From: Chlorophyllum brunneum
Taxonomy: Eukaryota; Basidiomycota; Agaricomycetes; Agaricales; Agaricaceae
Assembly: GCA_963576785.1 (NCBI GenBank)
Contig: OY756141.1
Coordinates: 2,542,001-2,606,000, forward strand
Length of the DNA stretch: 64,000 bases
Direction of reading: 5' to 3'
A program made the translations under genes and the position numbers. The notes below the pieces were generated by a model. The model ran no database searches. It saw only the letters and a program-made list of their open reading frames with translations, and was not told the DNA's origin. Shown piece by piece: positions 31,977 through 55,674 of the stretch. Position 1 is the stretch's first letter; every line of letters begins with the position of its first letter.

Positions 31977-33026
31977 ATGACGGACGAATCTCCCCTTTTT
32001 CTACGCCTTAGAAACATTGCTTTCAGTACGTGGCATCCCACTTTGTATCCAACCGTCTGTTCACAGACTTAAAAACAGGCTGTGTCATCTTTTTTAGCTT
32101 GCTTTTGGTTATCTTATATTCTATTGTCATATTCTTGCAATGGGACCTCATGGATAGATCTGAGAGTGAGTCAAGTATCTTGGTCCCTTAGTATAACATT
32201 CTGAAGGAAGTATTGCAGGGTCACTAGTCGCTGTCATGCTAGTAGTCAATGTCACGACTTTGATAACCCTTCTGATCTTGTAGGTGTTGATGTCCCATGG
32301 TATTCAGCAAGCTCTCATTGGTCCACAGGTTGGTGGTTGAATTCCGCGTTTGGCTGGATGTTGCAAGGATGTTTTTCTTGTTCCTTGCACAAATAGGTGA
32401 GTATCTACTATCTCAACAACCGAGTCCGATGAGGGATTAATAGTCCTATTTCAGGTACAGCGGGTGCATTCGTATATTGGAGACCACGATTTCGTTGCGA
32501 GGAGAAACGTACGTCATTTTCAATCAAATCCACGTCAATATTAATTTGTCCCTATCACCAAGTTGGCGACCAACAAGGCGTTTGTGACATGATCTCGCTT
32601 TACATTCTGGTAACTAGCTGGGTTGTCCCCGTACTGTGTACGTTCGCTTTGGGAAATAATTCAATCCATACTGATTTAATGCCCTTCGCAGTACTCACTT
32701 ATCTCGTTGGCCTTGCAATTAGGTCATATCGATACCGCGCTGCAAATTTTCATGTTGGTTCAACCTCAGACACAGAACAAGGGAACGCGGCACTAAAGGA
32801 AGGCCCACATTCTGGAAGGCCATCGCTTTTGCCAATCATGTCCGCCTTCCCAACGCCCGCATCTTTGGTCTTCCCACCGGATATTCACAAGGCCAGGCAA
32901 TCTGTCAATGCCAAACGTAGTACGGTGACTGCGTCTTCCAGGTATTCTTCACTTCCAGCAACCCCTTTTACCAGTAGTAGTCCAGGACGCTTAACAAAAC
33001 GATCCCCTTTGGTTGACTTTGTATAA
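31977..33026 (+). CDS. four-helix membrane protein of unknown function
   Basis: Six or so exons splice in frame to about 245 residues. MTDESPLFLRLRNIAF joins NLKTGCVIFFSLLLVILYSI (helix 1), SLVAVMLVVNVTTLITLLIL (helix 2), VVEFRVWLDVARMFFLFLAQ (helix 3), a Tyr/Trp/Arg loop, and MISLYILVTSWVVPVLLLTY (helix 4). The hydrophilic, Ser/Thr/Pro-rich C-tail ends in KRSPLVDFV. The layout resembles the uncharacterised 4-TM (MARVEL-like) proteins common in Agaricomycetes. I assign no function. Confidence 0.65.
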
Positions 33027-33419: not shown

Positions 33420-36400
33420 GGGAACCAACGTCTGCCAAGGTGCGCAGTGTATAGATATTCTTCATTCAATTGACGCCCACCGCGATTACAGACACAAATA
33501 AGATCCACTATCCAGCGCCTGGGACAGCTGCAGGCAAAGAAAGATGCAGACGCAGCTATTACTCGCAAGGACATCGCAACGCTGCTTCAACAAGGGAGTG
33601 TTCCGCTGGCTCGCAGCAAGGCGCAGAAGCTAATACAGGAAGATTCACTGGCTGATTTGTTGGAGGTCTTGGAGCAGCAAGTCGGGACTTTGTTGGACCA
33701 CTTCTCGGAGTTGGATCAGAGGTTCGTCCCCTCAGCTTTTCGTGGCTACTTTACGTATGCTCAAAAAATGTTAGGTCGTCACCCAGCCCGACTCTCCTTG
33801 AGGCATCTTCGAGCATTATCTTTGCTGCACCGCTTACTCAAATTCAAGGTCAGTTCATATTTTTCTTCTCCTGTTTCCTTGTCAACCTACAGGTGTAGAC
33901 CTCAGAGCTTTAAGCAACTTGATATCCGAGCGGCTGGGACCAGATATCACGCGCTCTGCCAGGGACAACAAGGACAGCTCTGTATCACCTCGAGTGCTGC
34001 GAGCCGCATCACGGCCGATTGCGACTGTCACTCAGCTGGATGCCTATCTTGAAAAGCTTGCAAGAAGTTATGGAGTATTGTGGACGGCCGGGCCTCAACG
34101 GCAAGACTTGTACGTTTTGTGCAGACTCCCACGACTCCGAACTAATCTCAGCCGGCAGTGTCGACCCATTATCCGAAGTCCTGGACCCTGACACAACATC
34201 TTCGATAGACATGACACGGTTACGACATCTCTGCATTCAGGGTATGTGGCACATCCTTGGCTACTATCTTGTCCTCATAAGCGCCTTAGGTATTCCTGAT
34301 GAACCCAGCTGGCTTCGTCCCAGACTCTGGAAGTAAGCCGTTGTTTTCCCTGACTGATATTACCATACTAAATTCATGATAGATTGCTCATGGGTGTCCT
34401 TCCGGCCAACAAAGCTGCTTGGAAGAAAGAAATCACAAAACAACGAGATGCTTACTATGTACGTCCGCCCGTTTTGTTACCCGTCAGAGTACTCAATTTC
34501 TTGTAGGATCTTATACGACAGCTGCTACGGCCTATCACAGAACTTCCGCCTCCTACCTTTCCTATCTCCGGACAGGACGAAACGCTCCTTGAAGTTTACA
34601 AGCATCTAACACGTATACCTACCGAACTATTTGACCAATTGGATTCGGAGCCCGAGGACCTGGACACCTGTCCATTACACCGAAGTGCTAATGAGGAAAT
34701 TCACATACCATTCGCAAACTGCTTGGACATGCGGTTACACCTTATACGATGGTTAAATGAAAGCGATCAAAAACGTCCTACGCTTTCCCCTACGCCAGAA
34801 ATTAGACTGGAAGCAGACAATATGACACCCACAATCTCACTCACGGAACCTAATGCCCTTCCTAATGACAACAAGACACCCACCACTCTACTATCTCCCA
34901 AATCTATTACTCTTGGCAATGCAAGTCAGAGACACGCCTCTGCACTCCTCCGTTTGCTATATATACACGCATCAATTAATCCCGGAAACCTTTCACCCTA
35001 TGTTCCCTCACTGCTGGTGCCGTTGTACACTGCTCTGGTGCAAGAGATAGAGCCCGAAGATCTAGCACATGCTGAGGCTGATTCGTTCTGGCTTTTCGAA
35101 GCATTTGTTGCTGAGTTCGCTGAATTGGAAGACGAGGAGGGTTTGGATATCTGGATGAAACAACTTGGTGCAAGGCTAGGACAAAAAGACCCTCGGCTCC
35201 TAGAACAGTTGGTGCGTTTCATGCTTATGACCCCTCGAGATGGTTATTAATCATGTCACTCCCAGAATGATCTAGGATTACATCCCTCATCACCCCATTA
35301 CTCACGGTGAGCGGAATATTTGCCGACCTGTTGTCTTTGCTGATTTTATGTAGTCGATGGCTCTCCTCATTACTAACACACACACTACCGTTACCTGCTA
35401 TTTACCCAGTTTGGGACATAGTGTTGTCTCGCCTAGGTCGGGAACGTGGCAAACACCCACGCCTTCAATCACTAATTGAGATCTGCACTGCTATGTTGAT
35501 CGCGGTAAAGCCACTCATTTTCAAGTGCGTGTCGCTTCTTCATGCCTTGTTTCACATTTGACATTCAACCATTAGGCAACAGAAAGCCTCTGGTCTCTGG
35601 GATGAAGACCATCTGAATCCCCGTGTACAACTAGGCGAGGGATTTCTTGAGGCCCTCGCGATCCTCCAATCATATCCCATCGACCTATTAGGTGGAATAG
35701 ATACCATTCTTCAGCTTACGGTAGATTCGGACCGCCACCAGCCACCACGCTCGACGAATAGCGCCGGAAAGATGGGTCAATCGGGAATAGGCGCTCGCAT
35801 CAAAGTTACAATGTGGAAAGGGTTTACAAATCAAATTGACTCTCCCGCACAATCTGACGATGACGAAGACAGTGATGAAGAAAGTGAAAGTGACAGCGAG
35901 GAAGATATGGACGACGGTAATGATACGGAAACTCCTAGCAGGGACTCACAGGCCAATAGCTTGACCTCCCGAATCGCCACTACAGTTTGGAGAGGAATCA
36001 CTAATCAATCTTCGATGGATGCTCCACCTTCCCCCATCCTTAACCCATCGCCAGACGCATCACGACCTCCTGCCTCAGTCAGGGGACACACGGAGCCGTC
36101 GTTATCTCCCGGTCCTCCGAAGGAGAGCTCCAACTCTGCCCCTGCGAGCTTATGGACGTACACGGAGAAACTGAAAGATTCCGATACCATGGCGGCGCTA
36201 TCCAAACTAAGCAGCAACTGGCGAGCGAAGGCGATGTTGTCTCCTTGGGGTCGGCCAAAAGAACAGGATTCTGCGCCGCTTGCCCCTCTTCCCCAGGAGA
36301 CCCAGAGTGCGATGACCAGTCCTGTACAAAGGAATGTCGACTCGGAATTCAAGCGAAGCTCATTGCCGATCTATGATCATACTGGTGCACTCTACACTCC

Positions 36401-37562
36401 ACCGCCACGGCCTAGCTTCTTCCGCAATCCTCGCGATAGTTTTATACCTGTTGAAGCAGCAATCTTGTCATTTTCCCCGACAGAGGTGTCGCAGAAGGAC
36501 GATTCTACCACAAGCGAGAAGTCGAGCGGAGGACTGCTTGAAAAAACCCGCAATTTGCAGTCATCTTTGATGTCCTTGGCGAGGACGCCTTCACCCAGAC
36601 CACCACCGCCTACAACTCCCAAAGCCGCACCACGACCCCTTCTCCTGAACTCATCTTCTCTAATCACTTCTCACGTTAGTGGAAGATCGAAAAACGACGG
36701 TGGTGAAGACTGGACTGATGTGATGAAGCTCCGTAACTCACACCTACATAGGGACTCGACGTCATCTCTATCTTCTCTCTCACCCTCTGACGCAATCCAC
36801 CGAAGCCAAACTCGCTCTGAATACGACTCAGACGCCGGTACCAGTAGAATTGTCCCTCTTAACCGAAGATCTGTTTCACCTATGGCACTCGCATCCAAGT
36901 CATATCACCCTCGTCCCCCCTCGAGCACTTCAACAGCTTCGTCTGAACAGACGGTGCCTCCAACGCCAGCAAAAGACATCTCAACTGAACGTCAAGACAT
37001 AGTTAATGTCGCATCACCCAAGGACGAAGAAATCACACCCAATGGCAAAGCTGACCCCTCTGTTCCCTCAGAACACGCCTCGCTGGTGCGTAAATCATAT
37101 CGAAGGAAGCTTGAACCCGCCTTCAGTCTCCCAGGTGATACATCGGACTCTTCTGTTGGGGGCATAGGCTCTCGGACAGTGCGATTGAGAACTAAGCGCT
37201 ACCCACCCCGACTGGACGCCCTCCAGATCGACAACACCCCCCAGAACGAAGATAACAGAGTGGCAAGTCCGTCGAACCTAGTGGTCCCATGGCCTAGCGA
37301 AGACCAGGAAACAGCTACTACGCCAAGGGCGACCTCGTTCGATACCAGCGTTCCACCATCTTCACCACTCAAATCACCCAAGGCCAAGGACGAGAGACCC
37401 AGGAAGATCTCCAGCAATTCTCGGCACCGCAAACTTTCGAATAACAACCGAGAAGGCGTACGTCGGAGCAGGGCGGACAGTGCAGCGGAGGATGGGGACG
37501 ATGAGGGCTATGATGATCTACTAAGCGCGTATGAGAGTGAAGAAAACAGCTCTACTGTCTAG
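33420..37562 (+). CDS. IST1-domain / TBC-domain fusion protein with long disordered tail
   Basis: Exons splice to MTTWEPTSAK and TQIRSTIQRLGQLQAKKDAD, then ITRKDIATLLQQGSVPLARS, KAQKLIQEDSLADLLEVLEQ, SPSPTLLEASSSIIFAAPLT, LISERLGPDITRSARDN and SPRVLRAASRPIATVTQLDA. This is a complete IST1 (Vps4 regulator, ESCRT-III-like) domain. Without any intergenic gap the frame continues through DPLSEVLDPDTTSSIDMTRL and GIPDEPSWLRPRLWKLLMGV to KEITKQRDAYYDLIRQLLRP, then HASALLRLLYIHASINPG, ADSFWLFEAFVAEFAE and LPLPAIYPVWDIVLSR: a TBC Rab-GAP-like domain, closest in feel to Oca5. The last ~600 residues are acidic and Ser/Pro-rich. IST1 and TBC are normally separate proteins; two abutting genes, or a mis-drawn intron near 34111-34160, are alternatives. 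Confidence 0.65.
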
Positions 37563-38379: not shown

Positions 38380-40238
38380 ATGCAACAGGAGCCAGCAGTA
38401 GCAATTTTCTGGGACTTTGGCAAGTACACTTTGAGTTTACTACTGCACATCAATTGTTGATGACACCGGCCTGATAGAGACCGCGAGAATTAAGGGCCCG
38501 GTTTCTGGGTATCAAGTTGCCAGAAGCCTGGCCGACGTGGCCAGTACCTTTGGTATCGTGAGGTCGTTTCGAACCTACCTGGATGTAGTGAACCAGATCG
38601 ACCCTGCCTTCGCCTCTGTACGGAGGGAGCTGCATTCATCTGGCGTCACGATCATTGATTGTCCAAGTAATTCAAGAAAGGATATCGCCGACAAGGCGAT
38701 GATCGGTGAGCTCACATAGAAGTTTAATGAGGTGTTCTCCGGCTGAAGTGACTATGACAGTCGACATGCTAAGTGTAATAATGGACCACCCTCCTCCATA
38801 TACAATTGTCGTTGCCACGAGTGATCGTGATCTTTCCTACACTCTCGCCACCCTCCGTCTGCGGCGGTACAAGGTCGTACTAGTATGCCCCTCCTACACG
38901 GACGAGGGCCTAGTTATGCAAGCTGATGAAAGTGTTGACTGGGGCAGCCAGGTTCTCGGCATCAGTGACAATGATGGTTCATCTTTGTCGTCGTCTTCCT
39001 CCTCCTCCTCCTCGTCCACTGGGGCTCTTTCTTATGCGAGTTTCACCCCCCGCGATAACTCCCAAAGATCGACTGCAACTCACCGAGGAAACCCTCGTAC
39101 CACTTTGAAGGGATCCAAGCCCCGCCACGCTCCTATTCCAGAACGCCAAGCGCAGAAAGGCGAAAAGATTCACATCCGGTCGAAACCTCAAGATGGAAGA
39201 GATGAGGCTAGTGTGCTCTCAGAAGGGTCAGCTCCCGCTTCGCCAAGGGCCTCCACGCCCAACCCCCTCCTCCGCCCGGGTTCTTCCACAACCAGGAGTG
39301 ATGGGGCCACCACCTTTACCCCGTCACCCCTTCTTAATAAGACTCCTGCTGAAATGCAGACCGGAAAGGGGGCCACGGCCACTGATTTGAAGCTTCGAGC
39401 TCGATCTGGAACAGTTTCTGGCTCTTTCTTCCCTCCGGTGCCGAGTTTTCCTCTCGAATCATATCCTCTAGCCAATGCCACAACTACCATGGAGCACAAG
39501 AAGAATTCTCCATCCTCTCAGTCAACAGAGGACTTCTTGGTTGTGGATCACCCAGCCCCTCAACACACGAAGGATGGGCCACCAAACCCTGCAGAGGGTG
39601 GCTCTGGCCGCGTCGCTCCGATTACCCTATCGGGTTCTCGAGTCGCTGAACCCACCAACCCTCCAACTGTAAATCCGACGACTTCCCCTGGGTCTTCGCC
39701 TCACTTGGTTCCTGTTCCGGCTGGTACATTTGTCGTAACGAGCCGGACTCCAACCATGCAGGCGCCACCTGCTGTACCTTCTCAAAGTAGCGTTGTACAT
39801 CGTGCTCCAATCACAGCGGCACCTATCGTTGATGTTCCTGCGACCGCTGTGTCTTCTCCGGTCCCTACACCGGCGCGGATGGCCACTGCACCAGCATCCT
39901 CCTCTGTGGCGGGCGCTGTCCCGCCACTGCTGACTGCCCAGACGACTCTCCCCACGCCTGCCATCGCACCGCCGCTAGCAGCACGGACATTTACCCCACA
40001 AACCGAAAAATACCGTATATTAGTCAGATGCCTACAGGCCTATCGCCGTAACGGAGAAGCTTGGCCGAATCAGTCTGGTGTCGCAGCAGCAATCGTTCAT
40101 GAAAACAACCACTTCTACCAGTCTGTACGAGTGACTAAATGGGGTCAGTATGCTTCTCAGGCCGTTACAGACGGCATCATTATCAAAAAGGGAGACAAGA
40201 TATCCCTTACAGAGGATTGGGTAAATGGAATTGTGTAG
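38380..40238 (+). CDS. NYN-LOTUS protein A1 (MARF1-like)
   Basis: First of six tandem paralogs, about 580 residues. Exons 38380-38419, 38478-38705 and 38761-40238; intron 1 uses a GC donor (GCAAGT). N-terminal NYN domain: VAIFWDFET, YQVARSLADVASTFGIVRSF, RRELHSSGVTIIDCP, DIADKAMI, then VDMLSVIMDH and ATSDRDLSYTLATLRLRRYK. All three acidic positions expected for a PIN/NYN RNase (D in FWD, D in ADK, first D in SDRD) are present. A ~350-residue Ser/Pro/Thr-rich linker includes a polyserine run. The C-terminal ~75 residues (ILVRCLQAYRR ... VTKWGQYASQAVTDGIIIKK) look like an OST-HTH/LOTUS winged helix. An RNA-cleaving or RNA-guided role is inferred from MARF1. No signal peptide or membrane helix. 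Confidence 0.8.
38986..39022 (+). repeat. TCC/TCG triplet tract encoding polyserine
   Basis: A run of TCN codons (mostly TCC and TCG) in the A1 linker encodes about 12 consecutive serines. It is an in-frame microsatellite, absent from the other five paralogs. Confidence 0.8.
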
Positions 40239-40930
40239 TTTCCGGCTGTCCAACGTTTTATAGTTTTATAGTTCCTGTGTGATTCCTTGTACCAAGGTTT
40301 GTGCCTCAGTGCAGAGCTTCAGTCATTCTCTGCTTCGGTGGAAGAATACTAACGTATGCATGGGACCTCACATAATTATTCCATGAAGGTTGAATGACTC
40401 TAAGTCCCACTGCGAAAGTTTTCACGATCGAAATGTTCAAATCCTAACGGACCTTGATCAAGTGATGACTGACTCCAGCAGGGAAGACATAAACACACGA
40501 TGACAAATAAGTTTTCTGGTTTATGTTGCAGTTCTGCTCATCTGTACAGCATTTACTCTCGGCAAAAGTACCCGTTCACGGCGCACTTGGCCCTATTCCA
40601 GCCCCTATCAGCAGCAGGCCTATCTATCCAATCGTGTTTGAATGCTGGGAAGGTGCATATTATTATAACGTCCTTGGGTCGACTCTCAGTAAAAGCAAAA
40701 CAAAGTCGGGATAGGCTCTTTGCGCCACATGGAGAGCTTCCTTGAAAAAGGTATCCTTGAATGCACGAACTACGTGTTGAAATAGACAGCTGTGGGAAGG
40801 AGGGCGTCCATCAACTCGGAAGTTGAGCGGCGCAAGGTAGGTGCAGTCAAGGTGATCAAGAACAAAGAACCACAAGGTTACACGCCCTTTACTGGTGTTT
40901 GTGGGCGCTCGTTTTACTTTGACCTTGACC
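40239..40930. other. spacer between NYN genes A1 and A2
   Basis: About 690 bp, the longest spacer in the array. No NYN or LOTUS remnant was recognised. An 89-codon reverse frame (40663-40932) overlaps the A2 start and has no domain. Confidence 0.45.
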
Positions 40931-42347
40931 ATGCACGAGCGTTCCGATAATGTTGCGATTTTCTGGGATTACGGTCTGGAAACGATTTCCTTCGTTACTT
41001 CGCCCATTCTGATGATTTGTTTTTATTAGAAAATTGTCCAGCCCCAGCGGGTACTTCTGGCTGGGGGATCGCGAAGGAGATTCGTCAGGTGGCTCAGGTC
41101 TATGGTAGCATCAAGTCTTTCCGGGCCTACCTAGAACTACCCGAGCAATCCGGTTCTCCCGAATCAAGATCGTTTCAGCTCCGTTCTGAACTCCAAGCCT
41201 CCGGCGTATCTCTGACAGATTGCCCACACAATGGACGTAAGGATGTTGCGGACAAGATGATACTCGGTTCGTAGTATGGTCCCCTCAGTTATACGCTCAG
41301 TCGCTCAGACAACATTGGCTAGTTGATATGATGGCCCATGCCATTGACAATCCCGCCCCATGGACCTATCTTCTGATTACGGGGGACAGGGACTTCGCCT
41401 ACGCCGTCTCTGTGCTGGGGCTCCGTTGTTACCAAGTCGTTCTGGTTTCACCTCGGACTGCTCACATCAGCCTGAAATCCCAGGCCTCGACCTGTTTAGA
41501 CTGGAGTCATATTCTGGAGAGATTGACAATGGGATCGTCCCGTAGGCCGGGCCAGGCTCAGGAGCCCCAATCTACCTCTCAACTTACCCCTCATGGTGCA
41601 CCAATTGAAAGGCCGCCACCCATCAAAAGTCCGCCCAGAGGAAGAAATCTATCGTTTTCGGATCATGACGACTACAACAGCAACGGGGAAATAGACTCAA
41701 ACCATTTCAGACCTGTCCGACGGTGCCGCGGCTTATCAATGTCATCGTCAGATGGCTCACAGAATGGGACCCTCGAATCTCGCGGTTCTACGACGCACAC
41801 GGCATATTTCTCTGCACGAGATACACCCGTACCTTCTCCGCCCCCTGTCCCCACGGTGAAACCTACACGTAGTGGCTCTTCTGCGCCTGGCCTACTAATC
41901 AGTCGGCAAGTAGCGAGCACAATGCCTGGAGATTTCTTACCTACAAGACCACTCACCTTCGGCACCACAAGCGGCTTATCAGCAGCAGCACCCACATCCA
42001 AAGCTTCCGCTCAAGTCGGTTCATCACCTCCCTCCCCTGCAAAACATACAGCAGCTACTGTTCACTTGTCCCCTCCTACTCCGAGTCGGCCTGCTATCCC
42101 AAATCCACCCAGTCCGAAACCCATTCCATATATTTTCCAGCCGCTAGTTGTACTCCTTAGAGAGTATCAGATAATGGGCTTTTGGCGCCCTTCGCGCGCG
42201 GCTATCGCCCAAGTATTAGACCAGTACGCTCAAATATACCCTCAGGCCAAGGTCGAGCGCTTCGGTCAGTACATTGCTCTGGCGGAAAAACACAAAATTG
42301 TCACTCAGACCGCGGAATGGATCGCATTGAGACCCGAGTGGTCTTGA
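40931..42347 (+). CDS. NYN-LOTUS protein A2 (MARF1-like)
   Basis: About 434 residues; exons 40931-40973, 41030-41266 and 41323-42347, with intron positions and phases as in A1. Its NYN domain is the most canonical of the six: VAIFWDYENCPAPAG matches the FWDIENC start of MARF1, followed by SIKSFRAYLE, LRSELQASGVSLTDCP, DVADKMIL, VDMMAHAIDN and ITGDRDFAYAVSVLGLRCYQ. All three catalytic Asp positions and the Asn after FWD are kept. The shorter linker is Ser/Pro-rich. The LOTUS-like end is FQPLVVLLREYQIMGFWRPS through VERFGQYIALAEKHKIVTQT. Best candidate in the array for an active nuclease. Confidence 0.82.
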
Positions 42348-42712
42348 TATATACATTATGGGATATGTTGTCGAATCTATTGCACCTCTTCTGGATACTA
42401 TACGTCATTTATACTCGCCTGGGATTTCGAGATTCCATCCTATCTACTAACAGAGTGTCTTATACTCGGATAAGTAATTAAGTAGTTGCATCTGATTAAG
42501 AAGGGCGTCCGCGCCAATTGACGAAGTCTACCTGTCATCGACTCCGCCTTCCTTGGGCGCTGAAACTTTTCTTGTTCTCAGGCTCTTTTCCCAGAGTGCT
42601 CAAGCGCTCAAGGCTGTGATGAACCACTGAACACCTAGACCCGCTATCTACTATCACATTACTCGAGTACCACACTGCCGCATGGCAATAGCACGCTTTG
42701 CCTCCACCCACC
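42348..42712. other. spacer between NYN genes A2 and A3
   Basis: 365 bp, with an AT-rich first part after the A2 stop and a pyrimidine-rich stretch before the A3 start. Nothing else recognised. Confidence 0.45.
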
Positions 42713-44590
42713 ATGCCTAACAAGACACACGGGGATGTGGCGGTTTTCTGGGATCTGGGTCAGTTCATTGGCATTCTATACTGACCACAATTACAGGGAT
42801 TTTGAGCTTAAGGATCCCCCAGATACGTGTTCTATCCACGGGTCCAATTCGGGCTATGAAGTTGTTGACAAAATCCGTGTTTTGTCCCAACAATTGGGCA
42901 CTGTGAGGATTTTCAGGGGTTATGCGGATCTGACAGACTTGAGGCCACCAACCACACTTCAGCTAAGGTCAGAGCTCCAATCGTCTGGAGTCTCCTTAGT
43001 TGATTGCCCGGCCGTGGCGCGCAGGAGCATCTCAAGCAAAACCATGATAGGTGAGTGTTACTTCACGTTACAGCCCATACGACTTACTCCGAGCTGTTAG
43101 TTGATATGCTAACTCACGCCGCGGACAACCCTCCCCCCACGACCTTTCTCGTTATTGCCGGCAATAATGACCTTGCCTATGCGATATCCGTACTACGGTT
43201 GCGACGATATGATGTTGTTTTGGTCTGCCCGAAGAGTCGTGTGGGCCAGCATTCTCAAGCGTCGCTGTATCTTGACTGGTATCATGACGTCCTCGGTGCC
43301 GATTCGACGGTCGCTGATGATTCGCTACATTCCGCTAGAGATTCACAACGTCCTCAACCCTCCACTAGCGGCGCTACAGAGACTCCAACGACCCCACCCG
43401 ATCGAATCAAGGCTTCATCAACCCCTGAGCAACCTCAGGAGCAGAAACCGGCAGCAGGCAACGACCCTCTCGAACCAGCTGTCCGTCGAGACCCAGATGG
43501 GCCCATACCCCTTGCAGAAATTGTCAACGACTGGCATGAGGATGAAGATACAGACACTCCACCGCCTGAAGAACTTGTTTTACATAGTCCTCCAGCAACA
43601 CAGGATGCCCCGCCATTCCGGGAGAAGGATGGACTGGAATATCTACGCTCGCAGTCTTTGACTCCAAATAGGGTTCCTGAGATTCAGCGTCCGTTGTCGG
43701 CGCCTCCCTCATATTCGAGTTTTTCACCCGCACCAAGTCCAGTATCGGAGGATATATGCGGGCCGCCAGCGTCCCGACCTTTCGATCCACCCTGGTACAC
43801 ACAGGAAGAACCCTTCGACGAGACTGTGGACGAGTCTTCAGACTTCCACTACCCAACTTCACAGCCACAAACTCCTGGAAGTACTTCTGCGAGTACGGTT
43901 ACTCCCCGAAACGGGAGCTTCGCGGCGACTCGTGTCTTTTTCCCTGCTCCCATTTCTGAAGTCACTGTACCACCCAAGTTACCAACGAGTATGGCGGCGT
44001 CTGCATTACTGGGCTTAGGGTCGCTTCCTCCTTCCACTCAACCTATATCATCCACCACCCAGACACACAACGTACTCCCACCATTGAGTTCTAAACAGGC
44101 GGTATCAGTGTCCTCAAAAACTCTGCCGTCCTCACCTGCGTTGTCGTCGGATACTGTGGGGCCGCCATCTTTTCAACAGGAGCCGACAGTGCCACGAGTG
44201 CAAACCCCTTCAGCGGAATCATCACCAATGCCTACTTCAACACCTGTGCCGATACCATCGAAATCAATATCACCCATGACAATGGCATCCCCACAGCCAC
44301 CCCCCACGCGAGTTCGTCCCCCAGCACCAGTAGTCGTGCCTAATCACTTCAAAGCTCTTGTCGCAAAGTTACAGGAGTGCCGAGCTCAAGGAGATGTCAA
44401 ACCTTTCCGACCCGGCCTCGCGGCCGAAATGGTCAGCTCCCATGGTGCCGACTTGCGTGAAGTTGGCGCTTCGACTTTTACAGGGTACGCGCAGGCAGCA
44501 GAACAAGCGGGCATTGTAGAGTTGCCTGGACCGGGAGAAGGGATGTGGGTCGCTCTGCGTTCCGAGTTTTATGACTACCCAGCTTCGTAG
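42713..44590 (+). CDS. NYN-LOTUS protein A3, altered active site
   Basis: About 590 residues. Start MPNKTHGDVAVFWDL joins, across an intron with acceptor CCCCAG near 42834, DTCSIHGSNSGYEVVDKIRV. Then GTVRIFRGYADL, LRSELQSSGVSLVDCP, SISSKTMI and VDMLTHAADN, IAGNNDLAYAISVLRLRRYD. Compared with A1 and A2, the ADK Asp is replaced (SSK) and the catalytic Asp of GDRD is Asn (GNND), so cleavage activity is doubtful. The linker is long, Pro/Ser-rich and partly acidic (DEDTDTPPPEEL). LOTUS-like C-terminus: FKALVAKLQECRAQGDVKPF to TFTGYAQAAEQAGIVELPG. Confidence 0.78.
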
Positions 44591-44773
44591 GTGGTACTAG
44601 AATCTGGGTGAATGGATATTTTGTATCTCTGATTTATGTAATCTAGCTGTGTGTATTTTCATATGTTTTAGTTTGTGTACCTCTTCCAACACCGGAATAG
44701 CTGCCGGATTGCCGTTCAGACCTCGTTGCATACTTGATCAATTGTCATTCAGCCCAATACTTTCGTCCGAGTA

Positions 44774-46138
44774 ATGCCTCAGCCTAAGATCAGGGTGTTC
44801 TGGGACCTTGGTATGTTTGTAAACGACTTTGATCGAATGGCGCACAACGAACCGTGACACCAACATCAATCCACACCTTAGATACCTGTTTACCGCCTAC
44901 TTCCCATGCATCTCCCCGGGAGATTTTGAACGACGTCCGGTCGTTTACCAGTCATTTCGGCGTCGTTACGAACATCAAGGCGTATTGGGACAGCAACAAA
45001 CCCGAGGTAACTTCGGAGGGTCTTCGAGTTGCAATGGCCTCCATAGGGGTGACACTTGTAGACTGTTCCTTAACGCAAGGGTATACAGGGAACGCCTTAA
45101 CGCGCACATTGATTGGTGAGACCGATTGTTTGACCATGTTAAACGATTATCTAAATATCAATACTAGTGGATGTTTTGGTCTCAGCGATTGACGAGGCAG
45201 CAAGTACAGGCACACCAACAGAAGACATTATCATGATCTTCTCTGGCGATGAAAGTATTCTCTACCCGATCTCCCTCCTCATGTTCCGCAATTACACTGT
45301 TTTCCTTGTGGTCCCGGACGAAAATCAGCCATTCCAAGCTACCCAGATATTTAACTGGCATAGGGATGTCTTGGGTATCAAGCCTGAAAAACCTATTCCC
45401 CCTCCCAAAACCACCGAAACTGCGCAGACTCGAGAATGGATTGTGTATGGAAAACACGTACCTCAAAGACCAGTGACATCGGACCCTACTCCTGCAACGC
45501 CGAGGAGTAGTTCCAGATCCCTGCCTTCAACTGAATCGTCATTAGCATCTCGTGCGTCTTCGGCTCTGGGCTCACATCCGGCCAGGGCGGCTTCGAGAGG
45601 GTCCCACACAAGGGATGTTGCATCCACCTTGAGGGTTGGCGTAACCAATGACCGCACGCAAATGTTCGGTCAAATCCTCCCACAACCAGAGCCTGAGGGA
45701 TATACCAGAAGCGATCCAGGGGGACGTGGGGGTTGGAATGCGAATGGCATCTGGACTGCGGGTGGATGGGAGGTGGATGATGATAGTTTGCTTCGAGAGC
45801 CGAGAACCCGCAAGAACAAATCAAATCCGGAGGTCGAGTGGAACCCCAAGGGGCCAAGACAGTCACCTCAACGCGAATTGGACCCACCGCAGGAAGTACC
45901 TCTGGCAGTGTTTGAACCACTTCTGCGGGTTTTGCAAGAGACCAAAAGACGGACTATGGGTAGAGCTAGATTGGCGGAGGAGATGGCGAGGCACAAGAGC
46001 ATATACAAGGAAGCTGGTGTGAAAGGCTTTGCCGAATACATTGCCCTTGCGGTCACAAGAGAGCTTGTCGTCGCTGGGGGGGTCGATAACAATCTGTATG
46101 TCAAGCTGCATCCAAAGGTGAGGAGGGAACGAGGGTAG
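44774..46138 (+). CDS. NYN-LOTUS protein B1, altered active site, GW-rich linker
   Basis: First gene of the second subfamily. MPQPKIRVFWDL splices to DTCLPPTSHASPREILNDVR, FGVVTNIKAYWD, VAMASIGVTLVDCSLTQGYT and GNALTRTLI, then VDVLVSAIDE and IFSGDESILYPISLLMFRNY. The second acidic position is Asn (GNAL); the GDES Asp remains. The linker holds a Gly/Trp cluster near 45718-45780 (GRGGWNANGIWTAGGWEVDD). LOTUS-like C-terminus: FEPLLRVLQETKRRTMGRAR to GFAEYIALAVTRELVVAGG. Introns match A1-A3 in place and phase. The shared opening MPQPK(I/L) with B2 points to recent duplication. Confidence 0.78.
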
Positions 46139-46294
46139 CTAGCTGCGGGCTGGATGCATGTCGATTTTTTGTGTAGCGCATGTAGTATTCAGGTCTTCGC
46201 GGGTCTTGCCGTCTGGTGCACATCACGGTGTGAAGCTCATCTGAGTCCTGCCACCCACTCTCTGGTCAGCTCCCTCATCCCCTTGCTTTCCATC

Positions 46295-47823
46295 ATGCCT
46301 CAGCCCAAGCTCAAGCTGTTCTGGGACCTGGGTGCGTGTCTGCCTCGCGGTTGCGAATAGTGAGTTCTAACCATTGCAACCGTAGTCTCCTGTCCGCCGT
46401 CAATGTCCTATACGTCTCCGGCAGAAGTTTTGAAGGATGTCAGGTTGTTTACGAGCAGTTTCGGCGTTGTTACTAGCATCAAAGCTTATTGGGATCAGAA
46501 CAAAGCCCAGCAGCCAAATGCCGTTCTGCGTGCAGCAATGCCCTCCATGGGCGTCAACCTCATTGACTGTTCGTCTATGCAAGGATACACCGACGACGCT
46601 CTCATTAAAATGCTGACAGGTGAGTCCAGATCCCGACTCGGTACAAGGGTCCTCCTGATCGAGTCTCGCTCTCAGTGGATGCCCTGATCTCCGCCATGGA
46701 TGACCCAATAAACCCCGAGACAGCGGAAAAGGACATCATCATGATCATTTCAGGGGACGAGAGTGTTTTATACCCAATTTCCCTCCTCATGTTTCGCAAT
46801 TATACGGTCTTTCTCGTGGTACCGGATGGAGGCAACGGCTTACAGCCGTTCCAGGCCACTAGAGTCTTTAACTGGTACCAGGATGTTTTGAGCTTCAAGT
46901 CGAACTCGAACCCAGAGCCTGTGTCCAACCCTGCTATGGCGTCCTTAACCCCCCAAGGATGGATCACCAATGGAACGCAAGCCTCCCAATCCAGTCCCAC
47001 TTCAGTCCTGATGTCGCCGTCTAGCCCTTCTGTGACTTCGGCACCTTCAGCCTACACCCCTCCTTTGAGACCAGTTACTTCAGCTACTACTCCTGGAACG
47101 ACGTCGGGGAGCATGAGCGGGTCCCTCCCCTCCGAACCACCAGTTTCTCGCGTGCCTTCAGCTTTGAGCTCATATTCCGAAGCTCCTGTTACCAGGAGCC
47201 TCGGAATTGCCCATGATGAAGGTGTCGCTGCCACCAATACGAGAACTAACATTTCAAGTGCCTATTCTGAAACGCAGCCGATTCCGGCCCATCAGCCTGT
47301 CCCTGAAGAAACTACCCCAAGCAGTAACGCGGATGACTGGGGGGCAAGTAGTGGTTGGGGTGCCAATGGCGGCTGGGAAATGACGAGTGCGAACTGGGAT
47401 CTTGATCCCGTAGCACCAGCGCCAAAGCCCAGGGAGTCGGAATCGAAGAAGTCAGATGTCATACCGAAGCAAGAGTCCCGCTCGAAACGAGAAACCAAGC
47501 CGGCGCAATCAACGGCGAAGAAAGACCAGCCTGGTCGAAGCTCTCAAACCCCCAAAATGCCTGCAATGAAAACCGAGCCCGCTGCGCCAACCGATCCCCC
47601 CATGTTTATATTCGACCCGCTTTTGCAAATTTTGCGGGAGGCCGAAAAGCAGTCGATTAGGAGATCGCAGCTGGGGGAACTTTTGGCGAAGCGTAAAGGC
47701 TTGTACCAGCTCGCAGGAGTGAGCGGATTCGGCGAGTTCATCGCCCTCGCTGTGAAGAAAAATCTCATCACTGTGTATGGCATTGATAACCACCAGCAGG
47801 TGAAGCTCAGAAAGAGGAATTGA
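46295..47823 (+). CDS. NYN-LOTUS protein B2, GW-rich linker
   Basis: MPQPKLKLFWDL splices to VSCPPSMSYTSPAEVLKDVR, FGVVTSIKAYWDQNK, AMPSMGVNLIDCSSMQGYT and DDALIKMLT, then VDALISAMDDP and IISGDESVLYPISLLMFRNY. By eye all three acidic positions are kept (FWD, DDAL, GDES), unlike B1 and B3. The Ser/Thr/Pro linker includes a Trp-rich block at about 47330-47406 (DDWGASSGWGANGGWEM, then SANWD). LOTUS-like C-terminus: FDPLLQILREAEKQSIRRSQ to GFGEFIALAVKKNLITVYG, ending in KLRKRN. The spacer before it is only 156 bp, so its promoter is compact. Confidence 0.78.
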
Positions 47824-48296
47824 ATTCTCTGTCAAGTGCGAGGTCATAGATATAGCCTCCAGGCTCTCAGTACGGAGGTCGTGGATCGTCTTTTCGGCCT
47901 ATCGACATTGGTTTCTTCTACCTTTCTGAGGTGTTTAGGTTGAATTTATCTCTTCCGTGACATGCCCGACCCTCTCTCAGTGGTCTCACTTGTTTTGTTT
48001 CATTCATCGAGGCTTCTTTGGACTGCATGAGTGTTCTCTGTGATTATTCAATAATACTTATGCCGTTGCCGTTTTTGATCCGTCCAAGTCACCTCAGTAG
48101 TTCTATCCCAAGCTTCAAAGCTTCAAGGTTCGCCCTGATACAGTGTCCATACCGCCAGCGCAGCGAGAGTTCTGGTTAAGTGCCCAGCACCCATGGTTTG
48201 ATGTTGCCTCGGGAATGCCCGATGTTCGCATCGATGACCCAGCCAACACCACTGGCTCTGACCGTCCCGACCCATTTGGTCCCTGGTGACGCATTG
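47824..48296. other. spacer between NYN genes B2 and B3
   Basis: About 470 bp. Contains a CTTCAAAG direct repeat (CAAGCTTCAAAGCTTCAAGG, near 48110-48129). No gene or paralog remnant recognised. Confidence 0.45.
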
Positions 48297-49914
48297 ATGC
48301 CTCAACGGCCTCAACCAAGGATAAAGATATTTTGGGATATCGGTAGGGAGCCCAGTGTATGCGAATCGCGTAGCTTCACTGACGACTACCTTTTTAGAGT
48401 CTTGTCCCCCACCAGCATCTTATCTGGGGTCACCATGGGATCTTCTTAAGGCAATCAGGCTATTCATAACTCGCTTTGGAATCGTCACCAGTATCAAGGC
48501 ATACTGGGATGGGATCGATGCCCCGGACTCGGAGGCAATTACTGGCCCTCTCCGCGTTGCGATGCCTTCCATGGGCATCAGCCTTGTGGATTGTTCTTTG
48601 GTAAAAGAATATAGTAGAGACGCACTCCCGAGAACATTATCAGGCAAGTCCCAAGTCCTTTGCCTTTGGACCCTTTCGATAAGTATTGGCCTAGTGGACG
48701 TGCTGGTGTCGGCTATCGATGATCCGATTAGTCTCGATACACCAGGAAACGACGCCGTGGTTATCCTCTCCGGTAATAAAAGCATCTTACACCCAATTTC
48801 TCTCTTGATGTTCCGCGGTTACACTATTTACTTGGTCGTTCCGGACGAAACCAACATTGAACAATCCCGAGCTAATAAAGTCTTCAAATGGCATGCAGAT
48901 GTCTTGGGCCTCAACTCCGATTCCAGCCCAGAGCCAACAACTGTTTCCAGCACAGAGTGCTCAACCCCCGAGGGACTGAGCTTGAACAGGCCACGAGCTT
49001 CTCGAAACCTTCGTGATCATCTTGCGGGCTCTCTACCCATGTCGCCGCAACAGCCGTCCAGCAGTCCGCCCACTCCGCATCCGCCTACATCGAGTGATGA
49101 GGTTTCTTATTCAACGTCTCCGCCCCAGCCGCCCAGAAAATTTACCCCGCTTTCTCCGAGGAAGGTGCCTGTTAACACACCATCTTTTCATCCCATGTCA
49201 CCCAGCATGTTCGCCTCAGCCACTACCCCAGCAACAACGCCAAAAACCAAGTCTAGGGATATACCTGCATTCGAATCTTCAGGCTCTCGTGCACCTTCAG
49301 CCTCTCCCTTCAATCCGAAAACGAACGCTCTCGATAAGGTTCAAGGTACTTGTGCCAGTTCCAGCAAGTCACCAGACGGCCGTGCCCAGATGTTCGCGCA
49401 GATGCTGGGCTCTCCATCGCCAGCGCAGGAAGAAATGCACAGAGATGTGGATAATGACTGGAGAGCAAGTAGCGGTTGGAATGAGAATGGCGGTTGGGAG
49501 ATGTCCGCATCAAGCTGGCTAACGGGGCCGGAACCAAGTGCAATAGGACCTAGTCAAGAGGCTTCACCGCCACTTCAACCTAGGCCATGGCCTGGATCAA
49601 GAGCTCCCTGGACCGCTGAACCCAGGGTTGGACATGCACCAGGGGTTAACCAACCTATGCCTGGGTGTCAGCCAGAGACGTCAGCGGCTGACGTTTCTGT
49701 GTTCATTCCCTTACTACAAACCTTACAAAAAGCTCGGGCTGACGGTAAAAACGAGGTACTGAGATCCGTAATCGGGGCGGTAATGGCGAAGGATAAAACC
49801 ATATATGAAGTGGCTGGTGTAACAACATTCAATGGGTATATTACTTTAGCTGCGCAAAAGGGACTCGTCGTTCTCGGTGGTGTTGGCGGCAAAGCCTGGG
49901 TAGGGCTGAGATAA
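48297..49914 (+). CDS. NYN-LOTUS protein B3, altered active site, GW-rich linker
   Basis: Last gene of the array. MPQRPQPRIKIFWDI splices to ESCPPPASYLGSPWDLLKAI, FGIVTSIKAYWDGID, VAMPSMGISLVDCSLVKEYS and RDALPRTLS. Intron 2 has a GC donor (GCAAGT at 48652) and, if retained, stays open. Then VDVLVSAIDDPISLDT and ILSGNKSILHPISLLMFRGY: the catalytic Asp of GDES is Asn, as independently in A3. Linker Trp block near 49450-49520 (NDWRASSGWNENGGWEMS). LOTUS-like end: FIPLLQTLQKARADGKNEVL to TFNGYITLAAQKGLVVLGG. Likely catalytically weak or inactive; RNA or protein binding may persist. Confidence 0.76.
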
Positions 49915-49967: not shown

Positions 49968-51185
49968 TCAAAGCTTGTCTGTAGTTGTCCAGATGTTCAA
50001 TGTATCCTCGTCGGCCCATAATCTGTCCAGTAGCTTCGTCAGCTTCTCTTGTACTTCTTCATCCAGAGAGGAATCATTAGGACTCTCGGCTATATATGTA
50101 ATCTTGCGTTTTTGCAATTCGGTAGAAGGATGCGCGGAAACGGCTTCTGTTAATTGTGCAACGCACTCCGGTGGGCAGTACAACTACACGCGTGCCACAA
50201 ACATAAGTTCGAAGGAGAAGATGATTATGAGGGTGTCATGACAAACCTTAATGAATTGTTTCCCCTCTTCGTCTGCTTCCCCGATATCAAAATCCTCCAT
50301 GCCATTCGCGAGAGCAACTTCTAGCATTTTGTCTTGTTCATGGGTGGTCGAAGGGTCTTGGGGTTTGGGAAACTTCACATCCACACGACCAACCTTCTTG
50401 AACATCCACATGACAGAGGCCTTCTGAACACTGGACATCAATAGCATTAGCGATGAAAACGAGCGCATACAGTAATCAGGTACCGGACCCATGGTCATTG
50501 AATATTTCCCTCAGGTTGGCAATTGTGCGGTTGAGGTTATCCGACAAGGATTCACTAATATGGAATTGGTCAATCATATGAGACGATTTAGAGGACGAAC
50601 GTGCGTACATGATGATCCCCACCGATTCAAATGCCAACGCCTCGTACGTCACGATTTCACCTTGCTTATTCTTGCCTTGCGCCTTGTATCCATTTGAGTG
50701 GAGTGTGGCAATGAGGGCGGTATGAGGTTGCGTACTCGTTCAATTGCCCGTTCAATATTGTCTTTCGGCACATCCTGATCCTTGGCTTTCTTCATCACGG
50801 CAGCAAGCTGTGAATTGAGATTTGGGTCCGCGGAACCACCGCCTGGAGAGCGCCACTTGATATCAGAGCTACCGAGAATGTAGAAGAGTACGTACTGCGG
50901 ATCGCGATTACAATATCCTAACCACAAAACTTAGCACCTGGTCTGCAATACGTGGAAGCTGAACGCACCCGTGCAACACGGCTGAGTAATTGGCCTCTCT
51001 GCGCGTCATTCACGCCCTTCTTTTCCTTAATTTTCGACCACTGATTCACTGAGCGATCAATCTCCGTCAGGGGCGTATTAGGAATACACCTTTACTTTAT
51101 TGTGACCTGCGAGAACGGGCTGTGTTGTCGCAAAGGGACGTCGGCAACATGACGAACGGAAAGCCGGTGACGCGAGTCTGTACAT
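49968..51185 (-). CDS. TACO1/YebC-family mitochondrial translation factor
   Basis: YebC/PmpR family; the human member TACO1 supports translation of COX1 and relieves ribosome stalling at polyproline. The start MYRLASPAFRSSCCRRPFAT is a basic mitochondrial presequence. Splicing gives AGHNKWSKIKEKKGVNDAQR, the family start, then DIVIAIRSGGSADPNLNSQL, AAVMKKAKDQDVPKDNIERA, EALAFESVGIIMYA, NLNRTIANLREIF, SSVQKASVMWMFKKVGRV and a third domain ending in AEDTLNIW-like DEDTLNIWTTTDKL. About six exons. It lies just right of the NYN array on the opposite strand, so its 3' end faces B3 with 53 bp between stops. Confidence 0.9.
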
Positions 51186-51329: not shown

Positions 51330-52427
51330 CTACCATGCGTGATGGCCACCATTGACCATAATACTGGAAATATTGGAAGGTTAGCGGTGTATCTCGGTTC
51401 TTTTTCGCAATTCGACGTACTCGCTGCCTGTGCAAAAGGAAGATGCATCGCTAGCCAGCCATATGATTACTCCACGCAGCTCATCCGGGCGCCCAATACG
51501 GCACATTGGGTTCAAGTTCGACCACTTCTCCAAAAGGTGAGGTTCCTTATCAAGATATGCTGCTGTCATCCTGATCACAGCCAGTCAGTCTAAACTTCTC
51601 GCTCCTAAGAAAGATCATTCACTTCGTGTAAATGTGCCCTGGAGAAAGCGTGTTCACGCGGATGTTTTTCGGGCCGAGCTCACAAGCCATGCTTCGAGCC
51701 ATCTGAAGAACGGCAGACTTGCTGGTGTTGTACGAAGTCCAAGCATGGTCCTGTGACAGGGAAATCCGTTGGAAAAACTAGGACTTCTTTTGAGCTTCCA
51801 CGTACCCTGTTCGTGATTGATCCCGACATGGATGCAATCAAGATTATACTTCCCCCATTTCCAAACCTAGCCATCTGCCTTCCAGCTGCTTGTGCGGTGA
51901 ACAACACACCGCTGACGTTAACATTCAGAACCTATTTCTGACATCAACACAGATTCCTTACTCGTGGAAACTGGAGATATGCTCACATCCTGGAACTGCT
52001 GCGCAGGATATTCCAAACAATCGGTGTGGCTCTTCAATATACCTGCTGCAGCAACGCAAACATCCATCCTCCCCTCTTTGTTCCCAATGTCCTCGCCGAT
52101 TCTCCACACCCTCTGTTGATCTGTCACATCAGCACTTGCATACTCCAACCTCGATCCATTTCCCAACTTGTCCACAAATTCTTTCGTCTTGACCCAATCC
52201 TCTGAGGGCTTCTCGGGTAAATCCAAGCAATAAATTGCTTTTGCACCAGCTTCGCAGAGTGCCAAAGCCATTTCAAGACCGAGTCCACGGTTACCTCCTG
52301 AGACGATACCAACTCGGCCCGTCAGTGCGAACTCTTCGAAGATTTTGGGACGGGCTTGAGCCGACCCTGCTTCTAGAGCAGCGTTTACACCGATGGGTGC
52401 CAGACGTGATACAGATTGAGCTTGCAT
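51330..52427 (-). CDS. short-chain dehydrogenase/reductase
   Basis: NAD(P)-dependent oxidoreductase of the classical SDR type. MQAQSVSRLAPIGVNAALEA precedes FALTGRVGIVSGGNRGLGLE, where the cofactor loop GGNRGLG is a clear TGxxxGxG variant. Then YASADVTDQQRV, CVAAAGIL, VSGVLFTAQAAGRQMARFG, SIILIASMSGS and the catalytic YNTSK (Tyr-X3-Lys), followed by IRVNTLSPGHI, LIGRPDEL-like GRPDELRGVIIWLASDAS and, across the final intron, TGSDIMVNGGHHAW. Closest in style to fungal L-xylulose, sorbose or mannitol reductases; the substrate cannot be fixed from sequence. Confidence 0.88.
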
Positions 52428-52799
52428 TGCTACGATGGGGAGGGATGCTTGATCGATGACCGTTCGTGTGTTACTTTGCAGTATATATACGTGAACCGTG
52501 TGCGACGAAAATGGTAGAAAACTGCTCAGCTGACTAGTGCTGACTACCAGTCACCAGCTCTTGATGTTGAGAAGGCTTCTCGCCCATATCGCATCAGATA
52601 TTTGTGGAGACCATGAGACTTGAGAAAGATTGAGAGTTGTGATTATATTTCCATAAAGTGAGCGGCTATAAATAAGTACATAATTCCAATACAATATCGG
52701 TAAAGAGCTACATATCAGGACACACCCAGAGTACGAATAGGAAGTACATACGAGTAGCGGAGTATTCGATTATACGAGGAAAGCGGCAGATAGGGACCC
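52428..52799. other. intergenic, nothing recognised
   Basis: AT-rich spacer holding the SDR promoter and the 3' flank of the NTF2-like gene. No gene seen. Confidence 0.4.
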
Positions 52800-53866: not shown

Positions 53867-55039
53867 TCAGAGGCCGTTGGATGCCCCTTGCCATAGACCG
53901 TATGTTTTCCCGGGTGTGGTCTGCCACAGACGGATGGTCCCTGTGCTCGTTTGAGTTGATGATGGCATTTATAATCATGGTCCGACTCACCATCCTCTGT
54001 AAAAAAAGAATCAGTCCGGCATCGGAGTGAGAAAGACGGCGGGACGTACCACTGCCACTTGCATACATCTCGCCATCGGGGCTGAATTCTACGCAGTGAA
54101 CAGGACCATGATGACCCTTCAGCACTTCCCGCTCCTCACCATCCATTCCATGTACCCGGACCCACTCGTCCCCAGAGTTGCCTGTAACAAACCGGTCTTG
54201 CAGAATAGGGTGAATTGAAGCAGAGGAAGGGGAATAAGGGAGAGTCAAGGTATATGTTCCGACTCCGTCGTGGCCGGTCGGAAGGACAGGTATGAAGGAA
54301 ACGGTTTTGCCAGATGTGACGACCAAACGAGAGGTCTGGGCGGAAAGTTCCATCGATGTGATTGGATTTGGAAAAGAAAGGCTTGTTGTCAGTTTACGTG
54401 TGCGCAGATCCCACCACCTAATCTACCATCAGTACCATGTGGGCCGAGCGGGAAGTTTGTCACCCACTTGATCTTGCCATCTTCACCAGCCGTTACGCCA
54501 GTGTGATCTCCCGCCCAGACAACACTTTTGACGACTCCGTCATGAGAGAGCAGGCCATTGTCGACCAGAAATTCTGGGTCGGCATCAGGGCGACTGAGGT
54601 CGAATATCCTAACTTTCTTTTCTTGGCCACCAGTGAGGATGCGTGATGATGTGGGTGAGATTGCGACGGTGCGAACGATGTGATTGTGTGGGAAGGAGTG
54701 CAGGACGGCACCTGTATACGAATCCCAGACTTTTCTGAGTGATTATAAGTAAGAGAAGGTGTAGCGAAAAAAAGAATCAAGCACTCACGCGGTGAAGTCG
54801 GCACTGCCAGTGACGGCCCTGGCAGCGTCGGGAGAGAGTTTGGTGCTCCAGACAGCACCCTTGTGGCCTAAGAAAGTGCCAATCCAGTCGCCTGTCCATT
54901 CCCGCAGCATTGGGTTTCCATCTTTACAACTTGAGACCAGCAAGAAAGCTCCGTCGTCTAGAACCGGGGAAAACGAAAGGTGAGTGACGGGGCGGGTGTG
55001 ACCTGGAGCCACGAGGGGGGTGGACTTGAGAAGAGACAT
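53867..55039 (-). CDS. STRAP/UNRIP-like WD40 repeat protein
   Basis: Seven-bladed WD40 protein of the serine-threonine kinase receptor-associated protein (STRAP/unrip) family, which in animals joins the SMN complex and TGF-beta signalling. [20 protein letters not shown] is followed by [87 protein letters not shown], and a last blade [20 protein letters not shown] plus [20 protein letters not shown]. The [21 protein letters not shown] block is the family signature. About six exons; complete. Confidence 0.9.
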
Positions 55040-55674
55040 TAGTGTGTAGCATAAACGGAGGATTGGGATCGTGAGTCGTGATACAGGCGCACTGCGCACT
55101 GGCCTGGAGGACAAAACGGAAGAGTCGAAACAGGCAAGAAGCGCCCGAGCCTCGTGCCTGCCATTTCCAGCCAGCACCGCAACGCACACGTATTATTAGA
55201 TCACAAGAGGTAGCTGGAATCAATGGGTCAGAGCACAACGAACATTCATCGATGCGTCATAAACATAATTCTGTCATCGGGAGCGAGGGCTCCCGTCACA
55301 GATCGCCACATCATACAGCCAGTCACCAGGTACACGGACATTAACCCCCCGGCAGTCGCGAAAAAAATGCATCTTGGAAATATCCATGTGTTGCCAAATA
55401 TAGTATCCACCTCATCCTATTGCGCCATCCAACCTTGATATGACAACACCAATGGATTACTCCTGGCTGATTCACGTCCAACTAAAGCCTTACCAAACAT
55501 TCCATTTATCACCGTCTCCTCTTCGCCTCAACTTCCCAGTAACCACCTAGTTCTGCACTGAACCTGGCCCAAATTGGGCTCGACTTCCCCAGCTCCATCG
55601 AAACAGAATCTCGATCTACTTGGATATAAAACATCGGTTCCCCGCCAACTTTCGTTCCCCACCACCAATCCACC
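55040..55674. promoter_or_regulatory. divergent intergenic region STRAP/SulP with TATA box
   Basis: TATAAA at 55625-55630 lies 45 nt before the sulfate permease ATG and is a plausible TATA box for it. The remaining ~580 bp show no recognisable gene; conserved sulfur-regulator sites could not be identified by eye. Confidence 0.5.

Follow-up and report, generated by a model that had tools for sequence, protein, structure and literature searches.

A conserved tandem array of NYN and winged-helix genes in the mushroom Chlorophyllum brunneum combines probable RNA endonucleases with apparently inactive paralogues

We analysed a 64,000-nucleotide window of the Chlorophyllum brunneum genome (GenBank assembly GCA_963576785.1, contig OY756141.1, positions 2,542,001 to 2,606,000), in which exon models built from splice signals place six genes, all on the + strand and arranged head to tail, between window positions 38380 and 49914. 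The products, g1 (38380-40238, 581 amino acids (aa)), g2 (40931-42347, 434 aa), g3 (42713-44590, 587 aa), g4 (44774-46138, 413 aa), g5 (46295-47823, 472 aa) and g6 (48297-49914, 503 aa), each consist of an N-terminal NYN domain, a long linker and a C-terminal winged helix, an arrangement of adjacent genes that had been proposed in an initial annotation of the sequence and is borne out by the gene models, the Pfam NYN profile and alignment. The catalytic acids are kept in g1 and in g2, which belongs to a widespread mushroom family, whereas the NYN domains of g3-g6 are predicted to be inactive; the linkers of g4-g6 additionally carry a tryptophan-rich patch. We consider it probable, though well short of certain, that the array encodes one or two RNA endonucleases (g2 and probably g1) together with catalytically dead, RNA-binding paralogues that act as adaptors or competitors. 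This reading builds on the computed fold (of a homologue), the common intron structure, the pattern of residue loss, the conservation and the shared array; from these we infer that the proteins bind RNA, that some of them cut it and which partners they may have.

The NYN profile (PF01936) matched all six proteins at 34.7-77.9 bits against a cut-off of 24.2 (E = 3.4e-16 for g1, 1.5e-21 for g2, 8.3e-13 for g3, 5.9e-10 for g4, 3.2e-8 for g5 and 1.5e-8 for g6). It was the only Pfam match above cut-off, and no RRM domain was found by Pfam in the six proteins. The fold predicted for the NYN domain of a homologue is PIN-like and of the MARF1 type, so that the NYN/PIN-like assignment, for which a profile search had been suggested as a check, stands. 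The FWD start of the domain is present in every copy. Three further motifs first described as common to all six hold loosely: the GV(T/S/N)L(V/I)DC strand reads GVTIIDC in g1, GVSLTDC in g2 and GISLVDC in g6, the VDxL helix reads VDMM in g2, and the G(F/T)xxYxxxA block of the winged helix is KWGQY in g1.

The acidic cluster of human MARF1 is reported to comprise Asp358, Asp426, Asp427 and Asp452, and joint replacement of Asp426 and Asp427 by alanine to strongly lower ribonuclease activity and impair silencing (PMC6294520); for mouse MARF1, the residues listed as necessary are D178, D215, D246 and D272 (PMC10226599). Our alignment places human Asp358 at the FWD motif of the fungal proteins, Asp427 at an ADK motif and Asp452 at a GD motif, and eight positions were tabulated in 166 proteins (160 homologues plus the six window genes, which are included in the counts). 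Aspartate is present at FWD, ADK and GD in both g1 and g2, and g2 keeps its acids at FWD, KD, ADK, GD and RD. The ADK aspartate is replaced by serine in g3, threonine in g4, isoleucine in g5 and proline in g6. The KD, ADK and GD aspartates of g3 have become Ser, Ser and Asn; the GD aspartate is also lost in g6 but kept in g4 and g5, and the aspartate at KD is kept in g5 and g6.

Homologues grouping with g3 (g3 type) or with g4-g6 (g4-g6 type) follow the same pattern. None of the 19 readable proteins of these two types has the ADK aspartate, whereas 133 of the 134 other readable proteins do, the lone exception (P0008) being a partial protein; outside the two types, the GD aspartate occurs in 135 of 136 readable proteins. 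Among the 24 g4-g6-type proteins the ADK aspartate was found in 0 of 14 readable cases, most of the remainder being fragments without that exon, the RD aspartate in 0/24 and the GD aspartate in 22/24; for the g3 type the counts are 0/5 readable at ADK and 0/6 at GD. Some readable rows are fragments of doubtful alignment (P0131, P0138 and P0146); when rows complete at all eight positions are considered, aspartate stands at FWD, ADK and GD together in 122 of 125 others versus 0 of 14 proteins of the g3 and g4-g6 types. From this residue pattern, two of the six proteins (g1 and g2) are therefore expected to cut RNA and the other four (g3-g6) are expected not to, or to do so poorly. The array thus probably does not comprise six nucleases, since g3-g6 lack the ADK-site aspartate. 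Two details of the alignment qualify this assignment. Human Asp426 (mouse 246) aligns to the alanine preceding the ADK aspartate, and a one-residue shift is possible; the position of mouse Asp215 is occupied by glutamate in g2 and most ordinary members and by aspartate in g1 and g3-g6.

Each window protein has one C-terminal winged helix, encoded on the + strand at 39972-40235 (g1), 42093-42344 (g2, which heads the alignment used for modelling and searching), 44318-44587 (g3), 45890-46135 (g4), 47581-47820 (g5) and 49660-49911 (g6), and the domain is present in 153 of the 166 proteins examined, the six window genes included. It had been likened to OST-HTH/LOTUS; the winged helix itself is upheld, and the finer assignment draws indirect support from profile alignment and none from Pfam. 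The Pfam OST-HTH model (PF12872) matched none of the six window proteins, none of 71 homologues scanned out of the 160 at E <= 1, and nothing in the C. brunneum genome at E <= 1, and there was no NCBIfam match in 45 scanned of the 160 homologues. Using hhalign, a cleaned set of bacterial OST-HTH domains aligned end to end over 71-72 columns with a probability of 59-70% (below 95%) and a score of 27-30, compared with less than 1% and 12-13 for MarR and Fe_dep_repress sets, and the match also exceeded reversed and shuffled controls. At 98.7%, the MarR and Fe_dep_repress sets match one another so closely that they amount to about one control; OST-HTH aligned to MarR at 4.6%, with a score of 17.6. 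A profile of 38 C-terminal domains run against PDB sequences returned three matches (E 0.56-1.6), none of them a LOTUS chain, and a Foldseek search with the model of the C-terminal domain had no hit below E 0.48; no LOTUS chain was among the best 50 matches listed, which does not in itself exclude the fold.

The C-terminal domain could accordingly be an unrelated winged helix that binds DNA or protein, as the missing Pfam match, the structural matches to winged helices in general and the 37-42% hhalign probability obtained with a first, rougher OST-HTH set would allow. We regard this as possible but unlikely in view of the score gap between the cleaned OST-HTH set and the MarR and Fe_dep_repress sets, and of the N-to-C domain order, which is that of bacterial NYN + OST-HTH proteins. 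Relatives in Pleurotus and Hohenbuehelia (P0145, P0010, P0027 and P0147) have three or four C-terminal winged helices, nearing the multi-LOTUS build of MARF1.

A rival to the mixture of active and dead copies is that all six proteins cut RNA, their active sites having shifted, and that the array simply expands dosage or target range. The NYN fold and FWD are retained throughout, and aspartate stands at GD in g4 and g5, at KD in g5 and g6 and at the mouse Asp215 position in g3-g6; with that position counted, g4 and g5 keep three acids. However, the site without aspartate in 19 of 19 readable g3- and g4-g6-type proteins, ADK, corresponds to human MARF1 Asp427, one of the Asp426/427 pair reported as needed (PMC6294520), and all six g3-type proteins also lack the GD aspartate, which makes activity of all six copies distinctly doubtful.

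Between species, the NYN domains are 78-79% identical for g2 (two orthologues), 72-73% for g3, 69% for g4, 70-74% for g5 and 63% for g6, whereas identity is 31-43% in the linkers and 54-76% in the C-terminal domains (eight pairs). The g4/g5 comparison gave a nonsynonymous divergence (dN) of 0.24 versus a synonymous divergence (dS) of 2.26, the latter near saturation, and the other five pairs had no usable dS. On this sequence evidence g3-g6 are being kept and are not decaying. Of the 166 proteins, 146 had an NYN domain of suitable length; these were thinned to 69 for a tree, whose bootstrap had not settled and in which the g3- and g4-g6-type groups sit on long stems. The g3 type (99/98) and the g4-g6 type (100/100) were each recovered and joined each other (96/81), and therefore a single loss of the ADK aspartate would suffice on this tree, though there may have been two; a quick tree without the catalytic columns still required one change, with a support of 74. 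The g1 domain forms a long branch, and no g1 orthologue was identified among the homologue lists and the tree.

The closest organism-named protein relatives come from Leucoagaricus, Leucocoprinus and Macrolepiota; both Macrolepiota fuliginosa and Leucocoprinus leucothites belong to the Agaricaceae. Gene order in other species was read from locus tags alone. Leucocoprinus leucothites has five consecutive tags (D9756_001857-001861) for a g2-type, a g3-type and three g4-g6-type genes, where 001860 and 001861 are nearest g5 and g6 and 001859 may correspond to either g4 or g5. In Leucoagaricus SymC.cos, AN958_02368, 02369 and 02370 are of g2, g3 and g4-g6 types, and in L. birnbaumii NP233_g3048 and g3049 are of g3 and g2 types. 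Judged from these tags and the protein comparisons, the array is a conserved tandem array common to several species, and the proposed tandem expansion is supported by the six tandem models and the consecutive tags. The impression that such a cluster had not been described in fungi agrees with our search of the open-access literature, in which no description of fungal NYN-LOTUS clusters was found; the array itself, by its tags, recurs in other species. The g2 protein has 351 homologues at E <= 1e-3, and the organisms named among the best 120 of these 351 are ones we take to be Agaricomycetes; in many mushroom genomes g2 relatives are annotated just as 'NYN domain-containing' or DUF537. The g4-g6 profile gave 21 matches, the organism-named ones solely from Macrolepiota, Leucocoprinus and Leucoagaricus, in a search that needs shared short exact words and scores only the best candidates, so that distant members may escape.

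Outside the Agaricaceae, consecutive tags were found in Hohenbuehelia grisea (Pleurotaceae; HGRIS_013278 and 013279), and pairs with tags 5-36 numbers apart in Ganoderma sinense, Grifola frondosa, Pleurotus pulmonarius and Athelia. HGRIS_013278 (P0152) has glutamate at GD and glycine at RD, keeps ADK and probably adjoins the active-type 013279; this pair is possibly an independent start of an active and eroded pairing outside the Agaricaceae.

Tandem, divergent paralogues, some active and some dead, could also form a conflict or toxin-antidote locus, a gamete killer or a defence against nucleic-acid parasites, where the active copies would do harm or cleave foreign RNA and be held in check by the dead ones, and two Arabidopsis pollen-killer proteins are reported to carry a limkain-b1-type NYN domain (PMC11761171). 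Such an origin seems improbable to us, because g2-, g3- and g4-g6-type genes occur under consecutive tags in several species, unlike a young selfish locus, and their orthologues are well conserved. That g3-g6, having lost active-site residues, are relics, functionless duplicates persisting by chance, is hardly credible given the intact frames, the equivalent introns in all copies, the g4/g5 dN far below a near-saturated dS and the 63-74% NYN identity between species.

If the array does combine active and dead copies, g2 and probably g1 would be metal-dependent single-strand RNA endonucleases working like MARF1 and DNE1, with the C-terminal winged helix picking the RNA and the NYN domain cutting it, as reported for those proteins. 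The g3-g6 proteins would descend from such nucleases, having lost metal-binding aspartates while being kept as RNA-binding pseudonucleases that most likely dimerise or pair with, compete against or redirect the active paralogues, or serve as adaptors. In g4-g6, the tryptophan-rich patch of the linker would provide the adaptor surface and serve in recruitment.

The linkers are long and of low model confidence, disorder being judged by a low predicted local distance difference test score (pLDDT) in a homologue that itself has no W-rich patch. In the g4-g6 type they hold a W-rich (GW/WG) patch, for example DDWGASSGWGANGGWEMTSANW in g5, amid poorly conserved sequence. At least three tryptophans within 45 residues were found in 22 of 23 g4-g6-type linkers, in 0/6 of the g3 type and in 1/124 others (linkers were measurable in 153 of the 166 proteins), although the g4-g6 set was found by a profile covering the patch region and many of its members are close kin, so that the 22 are not independent cases. 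The exceptions are P0127, a g4-g6-type protein without the patch, and P0157, another protein with it; all nine whole g4-g6-type proteins (the three window genes and six organism-named ones) have it. Across 14 aligned linkers of this type, the five tryptophan columns have a mean conservation of 0.86 versus 0.24-0.57 for other residue types, and full conservation is also seen at a few individual T, S, P and F columns. The g4-g6-type linkers have a second conserved stretch, approximately S-R-x-P-S-x-L (conserved at S, R, P, S and L), which may represent a further short motif for binding. A PAM2 motif was dropped as a candidate: two of 71 homologues matched it, with E values no better than 0.07.

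Tryptophan patches of the GW/WG type bind Argonaute or CCR4-NOT. Piwi-domain searches of the C. brunneum genome gave 18 exon matches on five contigs (C13, C12, C7, C6 and C3), at about six well-separated places, and the fungus probably has several Argonaute genes. We tentatively suggest, while giving the idea a low probability, that g4-g6 are mushroom-specific dead-nuclease adaptors, in which the NYN domain and winged helix would hold RNA and the GW/WG patch would recruit Argonaute or a deadenylase complex; it is also possible that the patch is a generic sticky motif.

Proteins that join an LK-nuclease (DUF88/NYN, limkain-b1 type) to OST-HTH are already known, being reported from bacteria and eukaryotes (Anantharaman, Zhang and Aravind 2010, PMC2848206). 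The array differs from them in a winged helix too distant for the Pfam model, in the long linker, in the missing ADK aspartate of four of six NYN domains and in its tandem arrangement. Human MARF1 (limkain b1 in animals) is reported to have two RRMs and eight LOTUS domains (PMC6294520), whereas the window proteins have no RRM and one winged helix each and are not orthologues of MARF1. The earlier label MARF1-like is fair as a description of the way g2 may act. Arabidopsis DNE1 is described as an endoribonuclease with an NYN domain, a C-terminal LOTUS part and fewer LOTUS domains than MARF1 (PMC10226599). The fungal proteins resemble it in joining NYN to a C-terminal domain, in their case a putative LOTUS one. 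DNE1 carries two LOTUS domains, unlike the single winged helix here, and we know of no array of dead paralogues for it. The g2 protein is itself a member of the mushroom DUF537 or 'NYN domain-containing' proteins and shares their common C-terminal winged helix; the g4-g6 type differs from them by its changed ADK site and its patch. SMG5 is reported to have a PIN-like domain without these acids and without ribonuclease activity (PMC6294520). It offers a precedent for an acid-less PIN domain as proposed for g3-g6. SMG5 belongs to a different PIN subfamily and has a different domain architecture.

The six predicted models, built from splice signals chosen by hand, give intact proteins of 413-587 aa from three exons each: 38380-38419, 38478-38705 and 38761-40238 (g1); 40931-40973, 41030-41266 and 41323-42347 (g2); 42713-42758, 42823-43050 and 43101-44590 (g3); 44774-44810, 44882-45115 and 45168-46138 (g4); 46295-46331, 46386-46619 and 46676-47823 (g5); and 48297-48342, 48398-48643 and 48695-49914 (g6). 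Both introns of every gene are of phase 1, 50-71 base pairs (bp) long and at equivalent positions in all six. Two of the 12 introns have GC-AG ends with the donor GCAAGT, g1 intron 1 (38420-38477) and g6 intron 2 (48644-48694); such introns are uncommon and easily overlooked by gene callers. The former runs GCAAGT..GATAG and has an alternative GT donor 4 bp downstream, apparently in frame, making the exon end provisional; the donor of g2 intron 1 is weak. The NYN domains of the six copies are 26-64% identical to one another, and the array is therefore not an assembly duplication, an artefact that had been raised as a possible objection; neighbouring copies also recur in other species. In the genome of 38.9 Mb in 14 contigs, exon-by-exon searches found no further family copies outside the array, though very divergent ones may escape: all matches fell inside it, 3 for the NYN profile and, at E <= 1, 9 for g2, 9 for the g5 NYN domain and 4 for the g5 C-terminal part.

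Ten flanking open frames were picked by hand, of which seven match ordinary Pfam families: WW domains (5988-7508), Ist1 (33474-34049), TACO1/YebC (50652-50930), short-chain dehydrogenase (51921-52550), WD40 (54788-55192), sulfate permease (57055-57918) and transketolase (60776-61453). The frames at 35562-37559, 34507-35247 and 32433-33023 had no Pfam match. No tRNA was found in the context check of the array, and with ordinary flanking matches a mating-type, tRNA or mobile-element context was rejected.

Work on MARF1-type NYN and LOTUS proteins has dealt with germ-line or mRNA-decay nucleases of animals and plants, and the papers found in our search hardly touch on fungi. As far as the open-access literature shows, the new elements are the conserved mushroom tandem array, the conserved NYN clade without the ADK aspartate and the W patch of that clade. 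One or two probable nucleases standing beside four conserved, apparently dead paralogues form a natural experiment that could reveal roles of the NYN fold beyond cutting, and the W-rich patch provides a concrete, testable hypothesis for a partner. If the adaptor proposal for g4-g6 holds, loss of the cutter and gain of a recruiter would have converted an enzyme that cuts RNA into a GW182-like adaptor for silencing, encoded beside its active source.

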